DNA of 64,000 nucleotides from contig JAQTXB010000011.1 of the NCBI GenBank assembly GCA_028688995.1, forward strand, positions 1 through 64,000. The letters are read 5' to 3'. The notes beneath the pieces are model-generated. The model did not search any database. It was not told the DNA's origin and saw nothing but the letters and a program-made list of their open reading frames with translations. Position 1 is the first letter of the stretch, and every line of letters begins with the position of its first letter. Source of the DNA: Aliarcobacter sp. (lineage in GTDB: Bacteria > Campylobacterota > Campylobacteria > Campylobacterales > Arcobacteraceae). Below, one piece after another: positions 58,262 through 64,000 of this stretch. Made by a program: the position numbers and the translations under genes.

Positions 58262-59965
58262 ATGAAGATGTCAAAAGAAAAATATGCTTCAATGTATGGA
58301 CCAACTGTTGGTGATAGATTTAGACTTGCCGATACTTCATTAATCGCTAAAATTGAAAAAGATTACACAACTTACGGTGAAGAGAGTAAATTTGGTGGTG
58401 GAAAAACTATCAGAGATGGAATGGCTCAAAGTCCAACGGCTGTTGAAGTAGCTGATTTGATTATTACAAATGCAATAATTATTGACTACACAGGTATTTA
58501 TAAAGCTGATATTGGAATCAAAGATGGAATTATAATTGCCATTGGAAAATCAGGAAATCCAAACTTATGTGATGGAATCACTCATGGTTTAGAAATTGGA
58601 GCAAATACTGAAATACTTTCAGCTGAGGGAAAAATCATCACAGCTGGAGCAATTGACACACATATCCACTTTATAAGTCCAGGTCAAATTGATGAAGCAC
58701 TCGCAAGTGGAGTTACTACCATGATTGGTGGAGGAACTGGTCCAAACACTGGAACAAATGCTACAACTTGTACACCAGGGGCTTGGAATATAGCAAAAAT
58801 GATTCAAAGTGTGGATGATTTACCTTTAAACTTTGGATTTATGGGAAAAGGAAATAGCTCATCAAAAGAGGCTTTGGAAGTTCAGATAAAAGCAGGAGCT
58901 ATGGGGCTAAAACTTCACGAGGATTGGGGAAGTACTCCAAATGCCATAGATACTTGTTTAAGTGTAGCAGATAAGTATGATGTACAAGTTGCAATTCATA
59001 CTGATACTCTTAATGAATCAGGATTTGTGGAAACTACGGTTGGCTCTTTTAAAGATAGAACAATTCATACTTTCCATAGTGAAGGAGCTGGTGGTGGGCA
59101 TGCCCCTGATATTATAAAAGTAGCAGGTATGGCAAATGTACTTCCATCAAGTACGAATCCCACATTACCATACACAAAAAATACAATAGAAGAACACCTT
59201 GATATGCTTATGGTTTGTCACCATTTAAGTCCAAAAATTCCAGAAGATGTAAGTTTCGCAGAATCAAGAATCAGAGGAAAAACAATAGCAGCTGAAGATG
59301 TACTGCATGATATGGGTGCAATTTCAATCACAAGTAGTGATTCACAAGCCATGGGAAGAGTTGGAGAAGTATTAATACGAACATGGCAAGTTGCAGATTC
59401 TATGAAACAACAACGAGGAATCTTAGCTGGTGATGATGAAAAAAGTGATAACAATAGAATCAAAAGATATATCGCTAAATATACAATAAACCCAGCCATT
59501 GCTTCAGGAATTGATGAATATGTGGGAAGTGTAGAAGTTGGAAAAATGGCCGATTTAGTTTTATGGAATAGGGCATTTTTTGGAGTGAAACCAGAAATCA
59601 TCATCAAAGGTGGATTTATCGCTCTTGCTTTAATGGGTGATTCAAATGCTTCTATTCCAACACCAGAACCAAGTATGTATAGAAAAATGTTTGGAAGTTT
59701 AGGAAAAGCAAGTGCAAAAACAAGTGTAATATTCACTTCAAAAGTAGCCCTTGAAGATGATTTGGATGTAAAACTAGGAATCAGCAAATCAATGTTAGCA
59801 GTTAAAAACACAAGAAATATAGGTAAAAAAGATATGAAGTTAAATGACTTTATAGGAGATATAAAAGTAGATCCAGAAACTTATGATGTAACAGTAAATG
59901 GTGAAGCAATAGAGTCAAACTATGTATCAGTAGTTCCAATGGCTAAAAAATATTTTATGTTTTAA
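58262..59965 (+). CDS. ureC: Urease catalytic alpha subunit
   Basis: A 567-residue amidohydrolase with the full nickel site. HIHFISPGQ gives two His, the carbamylated Lys is in GLKLHEDWG, a His follows in HTDTLNESG, another in [16 protein letters not shown], the catalytic His in MVCHHLSP and the Asp in [12 protein letters not shown]. It hydrolyses urea to ammonia and carbamate. Called UreB in Helicobacter. The length is normal and nothing is disrupted. It is followed, 48 bp later, by a toxin-antitoxin pair instead of ureE-ureF-ureG. Confidence 0.97.
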
Positions 59966-60013: not shown

Positions 60014-60265
60014 ATGACAAATGTATATGGTTCAAGGGATATTATAAGAAATCCCTCACTTCTTAGAATAGATGAAAATGACAGTTTTATAGTAGAAGAT
60101 AAAAAAGCCCATAAAACCTTGGGCGTTTATCTTGGAACTAAACTTGCTGAAGATTTTTTTAATTATACAAAAAAACAAGAACTTCTCAATTCCGCTCAAA
60201 AAATAAAAAATAGTGCAAATGAAGAGTTTAAAAATTTATCAGAAACGATAGATGATGGAATATAA
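60014..60265 (+). CDS. Antitoxin partner of MazF-type toxin
   Basis: An 83-residue protein encoded directly before, and overlapping by up to 14 bp, the MazF-like toxin. Residues about 1-45 (SRDIIRNPSLLRIDENDSFIVEDKKAHKTLGVYLG in part) could form the DNA-binding part, and the charged helical C-terminus (about 50-83) would bind the toxin. I do not recognise the antitoxin family, so the call rests on position, size and overlap. The RBS is AAGGAA. Confidence 0.7.
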   Translation: MTNVYGSRDIIRNPSLLRIDENDSFIVEDKKAHKTLGVYLGTKLAEDFFNYTKKQELLNSAQKIKNSANEEFKNLSETIDDGI

Positions 60266-60599
60266 AAGAGGAGATATAGTTTTAGTAAACTTCAATCCTC
60301 AAAAAAAACCTGAAGAAATATCTAAAATACGACCAGCAATCATAGTCTCAGATACACAACTTAATGAAATATTAGATTTAGTCAGTGTCATTGCATTAAC
60401 AACAAACTTAATAGATGATGCTTTGCCTTTAAGAGTGCGAATTGCAAAAAAAGATAATCTAAAAGAGAATAGCGATGCAATGATAGAGCAATTAAGAAGT
60501 GTATCAAAAAGCAGAATAGGTGAGAAATTAACTTCATTAAATGAAGAACAATTAAGTCAAATAGAGTATGGAATTAAAGCTATGTTGGCTTTGGTATGA
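60255..60599 (+). CDS. mazF: MazF/PemK-family mRNA interferase toxin
   Basis: A 114-residue toxin. The fold signature is YKRGDIVLVNFNPQKKPEEISKIRPAIIVS, given in part, with the catalytic Arg in KIRPAIIVS and the second active region in ITLTT-like VIALTTNLI. The C-terminal DAMIEQLRSVSKSRIGEKL is also typical. MazF-type enzymes cut single-stranded RNA at short sites. Two ATGs (60252, 60255) are adjacent; the second follows the antitoxin frame overlap and gives the usual MEYKRGDI start. It is probably coupled to the antitoxin. Confidence 0.9.
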   Translation: MEYKRGDIVLVNFNPQKKPEEISKIRPAIIVSDTQLNEILDLVSVIALTTNLIDDALPLRVRIAKKDNLKENSDAMIEQLRSVSKSRIGEKLTSLNEEQLSQIEYGIKAMLALV

Positions 60600-60624: not shown

Positions 60625-62733
60625 ATGAGCGATTTATTAAAACTTGGCAAAGAAAAGAAAATATTTGATTTTATAGAAAATGATACATATATTCTTTATA
60701 ACACAAATCAAAAAAAGGGAAATAAACAACCTTGGAATGAGACAGAGGAAAAAGTAAGAGCAGAAGTTTTAACAAAATATGTTCTGGAGTATGAATATCC
60801 ACTTAAAAATATAAAAATAGAAGTACCAGTAAAAAGAGGTAGTGGAGATAAAGATAAAAATAGAGCTGATATTATTATTTACACAAATGAAAAACATACA
60901 AAAGATTATATTGTCATAGAAACAAAAACAAAAGAATTTAAAGATATAAAAGAGGCAAAAGACCAAGCTATAAGTTATGCAAGATATAGAAGTGCCGAAT
61001 ATGCAGTTGGTACTAATGGAAAAGATTTTATTACTGTACATTTAACACCAGAAGAAGATAGGACAATAGAGACTTTACCAAAATATGGTGGAGATGCTCC
61101 AAAATGGAAATATATTAGAGATGGTGAATTTAATGATATTAAACCAATGGATACAGATAAACTAAAGGCTCTTTTAAAAGAGATTCACGATTATCTTTGG
61201 AATGGTGGAAAGAGAAATCCAGCAGAAGCTTTTAATGAATTTAGCAAAATAGTATTTACTAAAATCATGGATGAAAAAGTTGATGAACTAAGTCCAAATT
61301 ATACAGAATATTATCAATTTCAAAAAGATAGAGATGAATCAATAGATGAATTAGAAATTAGAATAAAAGAGCTTTATAATCTTCATAAAGAAAAAGACAA
61401 AAATGTTTTTGATGACCAGTTAATCCTTGATGCAAATGAAATAAACTTTTTAGTTGGGAAACTTGAACAATACAATTTAAACGGTACAGATTTAGATATA
61501 AAAGGGAAAATTTTCCAAGACTTTTTTGCCAATTTTTTTAAAGGAGATGCAGGACAATATTTTACTCCTATGAATATTGTTAGATTTATAGTAAATCTTT
61601 TTGATTTACAAAGTACAGATTTAGTAATAGACCCCAGTTGTGGAAGCGGAGGATTTTTACTTCAATCATTAGCCCAAATGCAAGAAAAATCAAAAGTTCT
61701 AAAAGACTCAGTTAAAAGGCATAAATTTTGGCATAGTTTTGCAGAACACAATCTGTATGGTATAGAAATAAGTGGAGGCATCAGCCGAACAGCTAAAATG
61801 AATATGATTATTCATGATGATGGACATACAAATGTTATCACTCATGATGGACTTGATAGATTTGAAAATTTTCAAAGAAAAAATACAGAATTTAAAGAAA
61901 ATAGTTTTAATTATGTTTTTACAAATCCACCATTTGGTTCAAATATTAAAGATGAAAAACCATATTTTAGCACCTACGAAAGATTTGCAAACTCAAATGT
62001 AGATTTTATAGATGCTCTTATTGATAGAAAAACAAGTAGTGATTTAAAAAATCAAAAAAGTGAAATACTTTTTATAGAGAGATATTATCAGTTTCTAAAA
62101 CCTGAAAAAGGTATTGTAGCTATGGTTTTACCTGATGGGATACTTACAAACTCATCTATGCAATATGTAAGAGATTATATCATAGAGAAATTCAAAGTAT
62201 TAGCTTCTTTTTCTCTTCCTCAACATACTTTTTCAAACTATGGTGCAGGGGTAAAATCATCTATTTTAGTTCTACAAAAAAAATCAGCAGATGAAGAAAA
62301 GAAGTTTGTAGATACACAAGATAAAATCAGAAAAAAATATGTAGATTTACACAAACATGAAATTTTAGCTATTAGAGAAGAGTTAAAAATCAAATTAGTT
62401 CCATTAAATCAAAACATAAAATTTGAAAAGAAAAAAGACCCAATAGATGAAGCTTTAATTTTACAAATCCAAGATGAAATAACAGAGCTAAAAGAAGAGT
62501 ATAAACTTAAAGAAGAGATAGTAAAAGACAAAATTTACGAAGCTGTAAACACCGATATGAAAAAAATAGAAAAATATCCTATATTTATGGCAATTATTGA
62601 TGAAATTGGAGAAGATGCAAAGGGTAAAAAGACTTGTGATTATGAAAAAACTGAATTAGCAAGAGTAAGTGAAGAGTTTAAAATATTTTATAAAGAAGTT
62701 TATGGAGATAATAAAAATATAAATTTTCACTAA
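60625..62733 (+). CDS. Nuclease-methyltransferase restriction protein (HsdM-like with HSDR_N domain)
   Basis: A 702-residue protein. The N-terminal 190 residues have a PD-(D/E)xK-type nuclease site, Asp82 in NRADIIIY and Glu99-x-Lys101 in VIETKTK, like the HSDR_N domain of type I R subunits. From about 200 it is an N6-adenine methylase: an HsdM-type helical domain, the SAM site DPSCGSGG (336-343) and the catalytic NPPF (434-437). A coiled coil ends it (about 560-700). Nuclease and methylase in one chain recall BcgI-type enzymes, where a separate S subunit gives specificity. The following S-type frame has no ordinary start codon. Confidence 0.85.
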   Translation: MSDLLKLGKEKKIFDFIENDTYILYNTNQKKGNKQPWNETEEKVRAEVLTKYVLEYEYPLKNIKIEVPVKRGSGDKDKNRADIIIYTNEKHTKDYIVIETKTKEFKDIKEAKDQAISYARYRSAEYAVGTNGKDFITVHLTPEEDRTIETLPKYGGDAPKWKYIRDGEFNDIKPMDTDKLKALLKEIHDYLWNGGKRNPAEAFNEFSKIVFTKIMDEKVDELSPNYTEYYQFQKDRDESIDELEIRIKELYNLHKEKDKNVFDDQLILDANEINFLVGKLEQYNLNGTDLDIKGKIFQDFFANFFKGDAGQYFTPMNIVRFIVNLFDLQSTDLVIDPSCGSGGFLLQSLAQMQEKSKVLKDSVKRHKFWHSFAEHNLYGIEISGGISRTAKMNMIIHDDGHTNVITHDGLDRFENFQRKNTEFKENSFNYVFTNPPFGSNIKDEKPYFSTYERFANSNVDFIDALIDRKTSSDLKNQKSEILFIERYYQFLKPEKGIVAMVLPDGILTNSSMQYVRDYIIEKFKVLASFSLPQHTFSNYGAGVKSSILVLQKKSADEEKKFVDTQDKIRKKYVDLHKHEILAIREELKIKLVPLNQNIKFEKKKDPIDEALILQIQDEITELKEEYKLKEEIVKDKIYEAVNTDMKKIEKYPIFMAIIDEIGEDAKGKKTCDYEKTELARVSEEFKIFYKEVYGDNKNINFH

Positions 62734-64000
62734 GCCTCGATTTAGATAAAAATAAAATATTTTTAATAAATCGGGGCGAACTTAGCACACAATGGTCTCC
62801 AATATTTTACCATCCTGAACGATTAAAATATATAGATATTTTTTTAGATGAAAAATATGCTTACAATGTAAATAAACTAAAATATTTATTTAATCTAAGT
62901 AGTAAAAAGTCAGTAGCATCAGAAGTTAATACATACATAGGTATGGCAAATATAGAATCAAATACAGGAATTTATTTATCAAGTGAAAATGAAAAAGGGC
63001 AAGGTGATTGTTCAGTTTTTTCACAAGAGAATGTACTTTTTGGAAAATTAAGACCTTATCTAAATAAAGTATATTTTGCAGAATTTAATGGTGGTTGTAC
63101 AACTGAATTTATTGTGATGGATAGTTTAGATGAAACGATAATATCAAATAAGTTTTTATCAATTTTTCTATTATTGGATTGTGTAGTTAATCAAACAAAA
63201 TATATGATGACTGGTAACACATTACCAAGATTACAAACTTTTGATATAGAAAATTTTATTATTCCTATTCCATCAAAAGATATTCAACAAAATATTATTG
63301 ATATGATGGATAAGGCGTATAAAGTAAAAAAACAAAAAGAAAAAGAAGCTCAGAATTTATTAGATAGTATTGATGATTATCTGTTTGATAAATTAGAAAT
63401 AAAACTTCCTATTGAGCCCGAGAATAGTATAGAAAATAGAATTTTTAAAGTTGGATTTGATGATATTTTAGGAGATAGACTTGATGCTGATAGTTACACA
63501 AGTTATTATCAAAATATTTTTGAAATATTTGAAAAATCAGTTTGTAAATTTACAACTTTAAAAACAATTACTAAAAAAATAAAAACAGGAACGACACCAG
63601 AGCAAAAACTTGATGCTTTCACAACTGAAAAAGAGATACCATTTTTGAGAAATTCAGATATTCAAGATGGAGAGATAATTGATAGTAAGTTTAAATATAT
63701 TAAAAATGAGGTAGAAAAAAATCTTACTTTTAGTTATAAAAATGAGATTATTATTTGTATAGCTGGAACTATTGGCGTAAGTGCATTAAATAGATTTGAT
63801 AGATTAGCGATAAATCAAAATGTTTCATCTCTGATGATAGATGAAACACAAATTAATATAAACTTCTTAATTTATTGGTTAAATACAAAGGTGGCTATTA
63901 GTTTGCTTAAAAGATTAGCTTCAATAGCAACTATCGCTTATGTAAATAACCCAACACTTCTAAGATTACAAATCCCGTTACCTGATATAAATATCCAAAA
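62715..64000 (+). CDS. Type I-like specificity subunit (HsdS), partial, no start codon seen
   Basis: At least 428 codons run to the window end. The frame is open from 62715 and shows SLDLDKNKIFLINRGEL, the first target-recognition domain, then the conserved helix IPIPSKDIQQNIIDMMDKAY with a coiled spacer. A second recognition domain with FLRNSDIQDGEI and IAGTIGVSALN follows, two-part HsdS architecture. The first ATG in frame (about 62943) lies well inside the domain, and no ATG, GTG or TTG precedes it. It may therefore be reached by -1 frameshifting from the methylase frame, by an unusual start, or be an interrupted gene. The start coordinate given is only the opening of the frame. Confidence 0.75.
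62721..62776 (+). promoter_or_regulatory. Candidate -1 frameshift element at methylase/specificity junction
   Basis: In the methylase frame the sequence reads A AAT TTT (62721-62727), a slippery heptamer of the X XXY YYZ type. After a 7-nt spacer a hairpin starts: CCTCGATTTA (62735-62744) pairs with TAAATCGGGG (62767-62776), ten pairs with one G-U. An inner helix AAAAATA (62748-62754) with TATTTTT (62758-62764) continues the stem. Slipping back one base avoids the stop at 62731 and continues directly into the S-type frame. Confidence 0.55.

Follow-up and report, generated by a model that had tools for sequence, protein, structure and literature searches.

How is a specificity subunit translated when its reading frame offers no start codon? 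The question is raised by a restriction-modification locus of an Aliarcobacter species (assembly GCA_028688995.1), which lies at the end of the 64,000-nucleotide stretch of contig JAQTXB010000011.1 analysed here (positions 1 to 64,000, referred to as the window). On the forward strand, an ORF at 60625-62733 encodes a 702-aa RM subunit, the product of normal termination, in which an HSDR_N_2 nuclease domain is joined to an N6-adenine methylase. The frame for the specificity (S) subunit, with two target-recognition domains (TRDs), occupies 62715-64000 of the same strand, runs to the window end in -1 relative to RM, and meets its stop outside the window (L087:8131). The first-pass annotation had claimed that this frame has no ATG, GTG or TTG before its conserved region, and this held: a scan of the frame from 62715 met none of these codons ahead of ATG 62943, and this earliest candidate sits well within the S protein.

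The junction itself contains the elements of a -1 frameshift signal. The RM ORF ends ATA-AAT-TTT-CAC-TAA, with the stop codon at 62731-62733, and the slippery heptamer A_AAT_TTT lies in the RM frame at 62721-62727; the earlier claims that this motif is found in the last methylase codons and that a slip on it leads into the S frame both held. The spacer, previously given as 7 nt, is the 6-nt CACTAA (62728-62733), the last three bases of which are the RM stop codon. A two-part hairpin, the putative stimulator, follows directly after this stop; its two-part form was confirmed, while its limits, first placed at 62735-62776, are corrected to 62734-62777. Its outer stem has 11 bp (62734-62744 with 62767-62777) and its inner stem 8 bp (62747-62754 with 62758-62765), all on the forward strand. 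The hairpin folds at -19.5 kcal/mol, and for 62731-62780 the z-score is -6.0, none of 200 dinucleotide shuffles folding as well. An SD-like GGAG at 62704-62707 (+ strand), 5' of the heptamer, is a possible further stimulator. The criteria for a frameshift site are thus met: a heptamer in the zero frame, a covarying structure at 6-nt spacing, and a contiguous -1 ORF that is start-less in the window. Taken by itself, the window heptamer is weak evidence, because the window has a GC content of 28%, the RM frame contains 14 X_XXY_YYZ heptamers in its 688 codons, and A_AAT_TTT at the junction has a probability of 0.38 given the encoded amino acids. The case rests on the hairpin, the absent start codon and conservation rather than on the heptamer alone.

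This conservation is wide. The first-pass annotation had proposed a comparison of homologous junctions, and heptamer and stem proved to be conserved in 24 distinct RM-S loci sharing a module made of the heptamer, a spacer ending in the RM stop, the hairpin and a -1 S frame. The four closest relatives, namely L002 (same genus as the window, RM 89% identical), L007 (a Campylobacteraceae MAG), L008 (Sulfurospirillum arcachonense) and L009 (a Sulfurimonas MAG), share AAATTTT, a stop ending 6 nt later, the hairpin and a -1 S frame. Beyond these, the module occurs in 18 more loci, nearly all labelled as other phyla, and in one viral contig. The sample was assembled from the best 80 of 398 relatives, which included 22 module loci; L085 was dropped as a duplicate of L083, and the window, L002 and the viral contig L092 complete the 24. 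The phylum labels comprise Campylobacterota, Pseudomonadota, Thermodesulfobacteriota, Bacteroidota, Planctomycetota, Bacillota and Mycoplasmatota, with L035 unplaced. Several module loci are MAGs, so these labels may be wrong, and the named isolates carrying the module include S. arcachonense DSM 9755 and Methylobacter tundripaludum. The window heptamer aligns with C_CCT_TTT, T_TTT_TTC and T_TTT_TTT in relatives, and all 24 sites fit H_HH.U_UU.Y, a U-type pattern among the most efficient frameshift heptamer classes in E. coli (PMC4066793); the Campylobacterota heptamers, with probabilities of 0.34-0.45 given the amino acids, are unsurprising. The RM stop ends 6 nt past the heptamer in 23 of the 24 loci, the exception being L039 (3 nt). 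An SD-like element, optional in frameshift sites of this kind, is found in only 12 of the 24, whereas 11% of positions in these genes show one.

Since the 24 loci were first chosen by eye, a separate sorting was run on 75 usable loci with the absence of ATG/GTG near the junction as its only criterion. A heptamer lies near the RM stop in 18/18 start-less loci and in 7/57 others (Fisher p 5e-12, not corrected for kinship), and of these seven, six belong to the module set as well. L064 is start-less and has AAATTTG, but without hairpin or S-like downstream frame, and stands outside the 24. The sorting left out L003 and L006 (M identity under 34%), the in-frame fusions L018, L024 and L045, L068, for which no S frame was found, and the duplicate L085; L004, L005, L013 and L034 never entered it, their retrieved sequence lacking a stop-terminated RM frame of 450 codons.

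A possible S start at or before the RM stop exists in four of the 24 loci (L002, ATG at -31; L008, TTG at -4; L035, GTG at -4; L092, TTG at -31 and ATG at -4), and L072 has an ATG or GTG farther upstream in the S frame, so that at least five carry a candidate start. Relatives with an ordinary ATG for S, which the first-pass annotation had named as the outcome that would refute frameshifting, were met only among more distant loci, where heptamer and hairpin are absent or weak; an ATG overlap at the junction is seen, for instance, in the Helicobacter loci L010 and L011. Since an ATG start suffices for many homologues, the family does not depend on fusion. The viral contig L092 has heptamer and hairpin (L092:5229-5320) plus an ATG overlapping the RM stop, and may conceivably be an intermediate between frameshift and ATG start.

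Wider searches added little. An RM match of any kind was obtained in only 5 of 31 genomes of the window's genus. Against Campylobacterota, model R1 matched 3 of 298 genomes and gave no clearly new member; these were the window's own genome and, judging by sequence, apparently those of L007 and L008. No new module locus was recognised in plasmids, phages or E. coli, where matches were not inspected at the junction and one of the searches gave no record covering 80% of the query. L092 was the sole module locus among 20 protein-matched loci on viral contigs. Among 27 pattern-matched viral loci, only L111, L119 and L128 scored with R1, all weakly, and L111 and L119 were on inspection unlike RM-S. 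An Rfam search of 62400-63200 gave no match at E up to 1.

The hairpin is selected at the RNA level, beyond its coding of peptide. Across 23 aligned junctions, 87% of cells pair, against 78% when shuffled; double-sided changes occur in 10 of 15 pairs, with 39 such cells against 15.3 in shuffled data, and sliding the structure along the alignment drops pairing to 36-57%. In 13 sequences excluding Campylobacterota, as well as L032, L037, L039, L072 and L075 (length differences or long branches), 94% of cells pair and the covariation is repeated. A codon control, consisting of 1000 synonymous recodings per locus that keep the peptide and the gene's own codon usage, gave a median z of -4.6, with at most 11 of 1000 recodings folding as well in 20 of the 24 loci; the hairpin was not clearly above this control in L035, L039, L070 and L083. 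The ATG-start homologues with related peptide are weaker or null (L029, z -1.9; L054, 0.8). Model R2, for which 13 loci in other phyla served as the training set, scores the window site at 44 bits (E 6e-8) and detects no second site on the + strand of the window up to E 1; it also recovers the five left-out rows and L092. The inner-stem register varies among lineages, which explains why the 15-pair model fits Campylobacterota less well.

Nature has also made the predicted fusion. Single-ORF RM-S fusions are found in L018 (Chromatium okenii), L024 (a Bacteroidales MAG) and L045 (Planktothrix rubescens), and their junction peptide resembles that predicted for the slipped product, e.g. HPFTLSPDTDKNKIF. 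L018 (T_TTT_TTT) and L024 (C_CCT_TTT) retain heptamer and hairpin, with z of -3.5 and -4.5 respectively, and L024 has further in-frame heptamers near the junction; L045 has a T9 run (L045:6106-6115) and no hairpin. A -1 slip from these runs would meet a stop after 4 (L018), 7 (L024) or 1-2 (L045) codons and yield essentially RM alone. Because the fusions have slippery runs whose -1 slip would release RM, the making of both products seems to be conserved; this is only moderate evidence, early stops being common in AT-rich DNA. An AlphaFold model of the L045 protein (mean pLDDT 77, pTM 0.64) is confident for the RM part and low for residues 692-734 just after it; its best PDB match is BsaXI, and it is silent on stoichiometry.

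The encoded proteins resemble those of Type IIB enzymes. RM matches HSDR_N_2 (8.5e-19) and N6_Mtase (1e-34) in Pfam, its nuclease motif D..ExK is invariant across 21 homologues, and the nearest PDB sequence is RM.BsaXI (5e-38); the Type IIB criterion of an RM chain with nuclease and N6-adenine methylase motifs is met. The S frame matches Methylase_S (1.5e-15) in two stretches, yet it is predicted to be part of a fusion, unlike a separate Type IIB S subunit. No HsdR gene was recognised in a 19-kb stretch around the locus, in which ORFs were judged by eye and only some were scanned.

The neighbourhood offers some side observations. Just past the window and overlapping the end of S, L087:8115-9545 encodes a DndB-like protein with a C-terminal TIR-like stretch; according to an iterative HMM search, this family lies directly 3' of S in 10 module loci and four ATG-start loci, and could possibly be a third component of a defence system. 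Directly 5' of RM, 60014-60599 holds a small ORF and a PemK/MazF-like toxin gene, likely a toxin-antitoxin pair. The RM-S island apparently sits within a urease operon, flanked at 58262-59965 and L087:9569-11402 by what we take to be a ureC-like gene and ureE/F/G-like genes, from ORFs judged by eye.

We conclude that the junction is likely a programmed -1 ribosomal frameshift cassette yielding both RM and RM-S. The earlier interpretation, in which normal termination gives nuclease-methylase alone and slippage a nuclease-methylase-specificity fusion, is thus supported by comparison, without protein evidence; that slippage occurs, how efficiently, and why, as well as the fusion protein itself, remain inferences. 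On A_AAT_TTT, within the last RM codons, ribosomes would have the hairpin at their mRNA entry side. The majority would read CAC-TAA and release the RM subunit, and a minority would re-pair one base back (AAA TTT) and go on through TCA-CTA-AGC into S, the slipped product being a single RM-S chain (...NINF-SLSLDLDKNKIFLINRGE...). The likely purpose would be joint production of RM and RM-S. A single S, with its two target domains, would then be matched by two RM modules, as in the (RM)2S or A2B architecture of Type IIB enzymes, and no S would have to be initiated separately; stoichiometry and cleavage are again inferred.

The rival that survives best, though we consider it unlikely, is translational coupling: ribosomes would re-initiate on a non-standard codon near the RM stop to make a separate S, the hairpin serving only to position them. 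Overlap-type coupling is usual for hsdM/hsdS (PMC3510504) and appears to be what most relatives here use, and an ATG, GTG or TTG overlaps the stop in L092, L035 and L008. However, in the -1 frame the stop is mostly overlapped by CTA or TTA, neither of them a start codon, whereas the ATG-type relatives have a proper ATG; the conserved -1-frame peptide is already coded 5' of the stop, and the natural fusions contain it. Coupling also leaves the heptamer without a reason.

Slippage during transcription rather than translation could also shift the frame. The sites are T-rich, and this is plausible at L045, given its T9 run and lack of hairpin. For the module loci it is very unlikely: the site is just AAATTTT in the window and CCCTTTT or T6C in most other loci, whereas transcriptional slippage is described for runs longer than about 7 A or 8 T (PMC5009743, PMC3711429), and a hairpin at fixed 6-nt spacing suits ribosomes better. 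Just as improbable is a hairpin unrelated to the frame, acting as a transcription attenuator or as a recombination site where S target domains are exchanged. In its favour, the S target domains of the window locus and L002 diverge sharply just 3' of an identical hairpin. Against it, no T-run follows the stem as in an intrinsic terminator, the distance between the heptamer and the start of the hairpin is constant, and the ATG-start homologues L029 and L054, with related peptide, lack a clear hairpin. Finally, a frameshift mutation or assembly error in a once-continuous RM-S or ATG-started S, for which the existence of relatives with in-frame fusions might speak, is all but excluded: 24 loci, named isolates among them, share the frame relation and the order of the elements, and their hairpins show compensatory changes.

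The proposed frameshift is reminiscent of dnaX, which likewise combines a heptamer, a 3' stem-loop and some upstream SD-like elements and makes two products with a common N-terminus whose ratio matters (PMC5009743); both polarities occur among RM-S loci, as reported for dnaX. The RM-S cassette differs in its U-type heptamers, in a stop that, in its common form, always lies close behind the heptamer, and in an extension that is a DNA-recognition subunit. The Type IIB enzymes BsaXI, an (RM)2S complex (PMC11997821), and BcgI, described as A2B (PMC4027205), resemble this system in pairing an RM chain with a two-TRD S, but the window S has no start codon of its own, and cleavage and stoichiometry are only inferred here; the word 'frameshift' is absent from the text of PMC11997821 on BsaXI. 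In the engineered EcoKI hsdM-hsdS fusion (Type IMS), M and S are joined at the corresponding boundary, and DNA is cut in vitro only with added HsdM (PMC3510504). That fusion has no programmed source of free M, whereas frameshifting here could supply both forms. RM and S also show sequence similarity to MAD2/MAD5 of MADS, but with scores of 301 of 720 and 73 of 400, far below the NCBIfam equivalog cut-offs, membership was rejected.

A bolder reading, which we hold only tentatively and judge a little less probable than its negation, is that the cassette is ancestral to the RM-S family and was later replaced in several lineages by ATG starts or in-frame fusions. The slip ratio would then set the RM:RM-S stoichiometry, one cistron giving (RM)2S, and in some lineages the polarity would be reversed, with the fusion as default and RM made by slip. 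A quick tree was built from 84 RM proteins. The module and slippery-fusion loci together require 7 changes on it, where shuffled labels require 22.9, and they are found on either side of the midpoint root. It is plausible, though not demonstrated, that the cassette arose early and was replaced several times; transfer between lineages is also likely.

Outside mobile elements, few cases of conserved -1 frameshifting are well established for bacterial chromosomal genes, the classic one being dnaX, and no report of programmed frameshifting in restriction-modification was found in the open-access literature searched. S genes annotated from internal starts at such loci may be mis-annotated, a suggestion made without inspecting the annotations. 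If the proposed frameshift is real, it would constitute a wide, cross-phylum case in a defence enzyme and would explain how a fused S obtains its second RM, a question posed by the EcoKI fusion and by the single-chain Type IIB enzymes for which this stoichiometry problem was raised (PMC4027205). Should the bolder reading also be true, slip efficiency might control the balance of methylation versus restriction.
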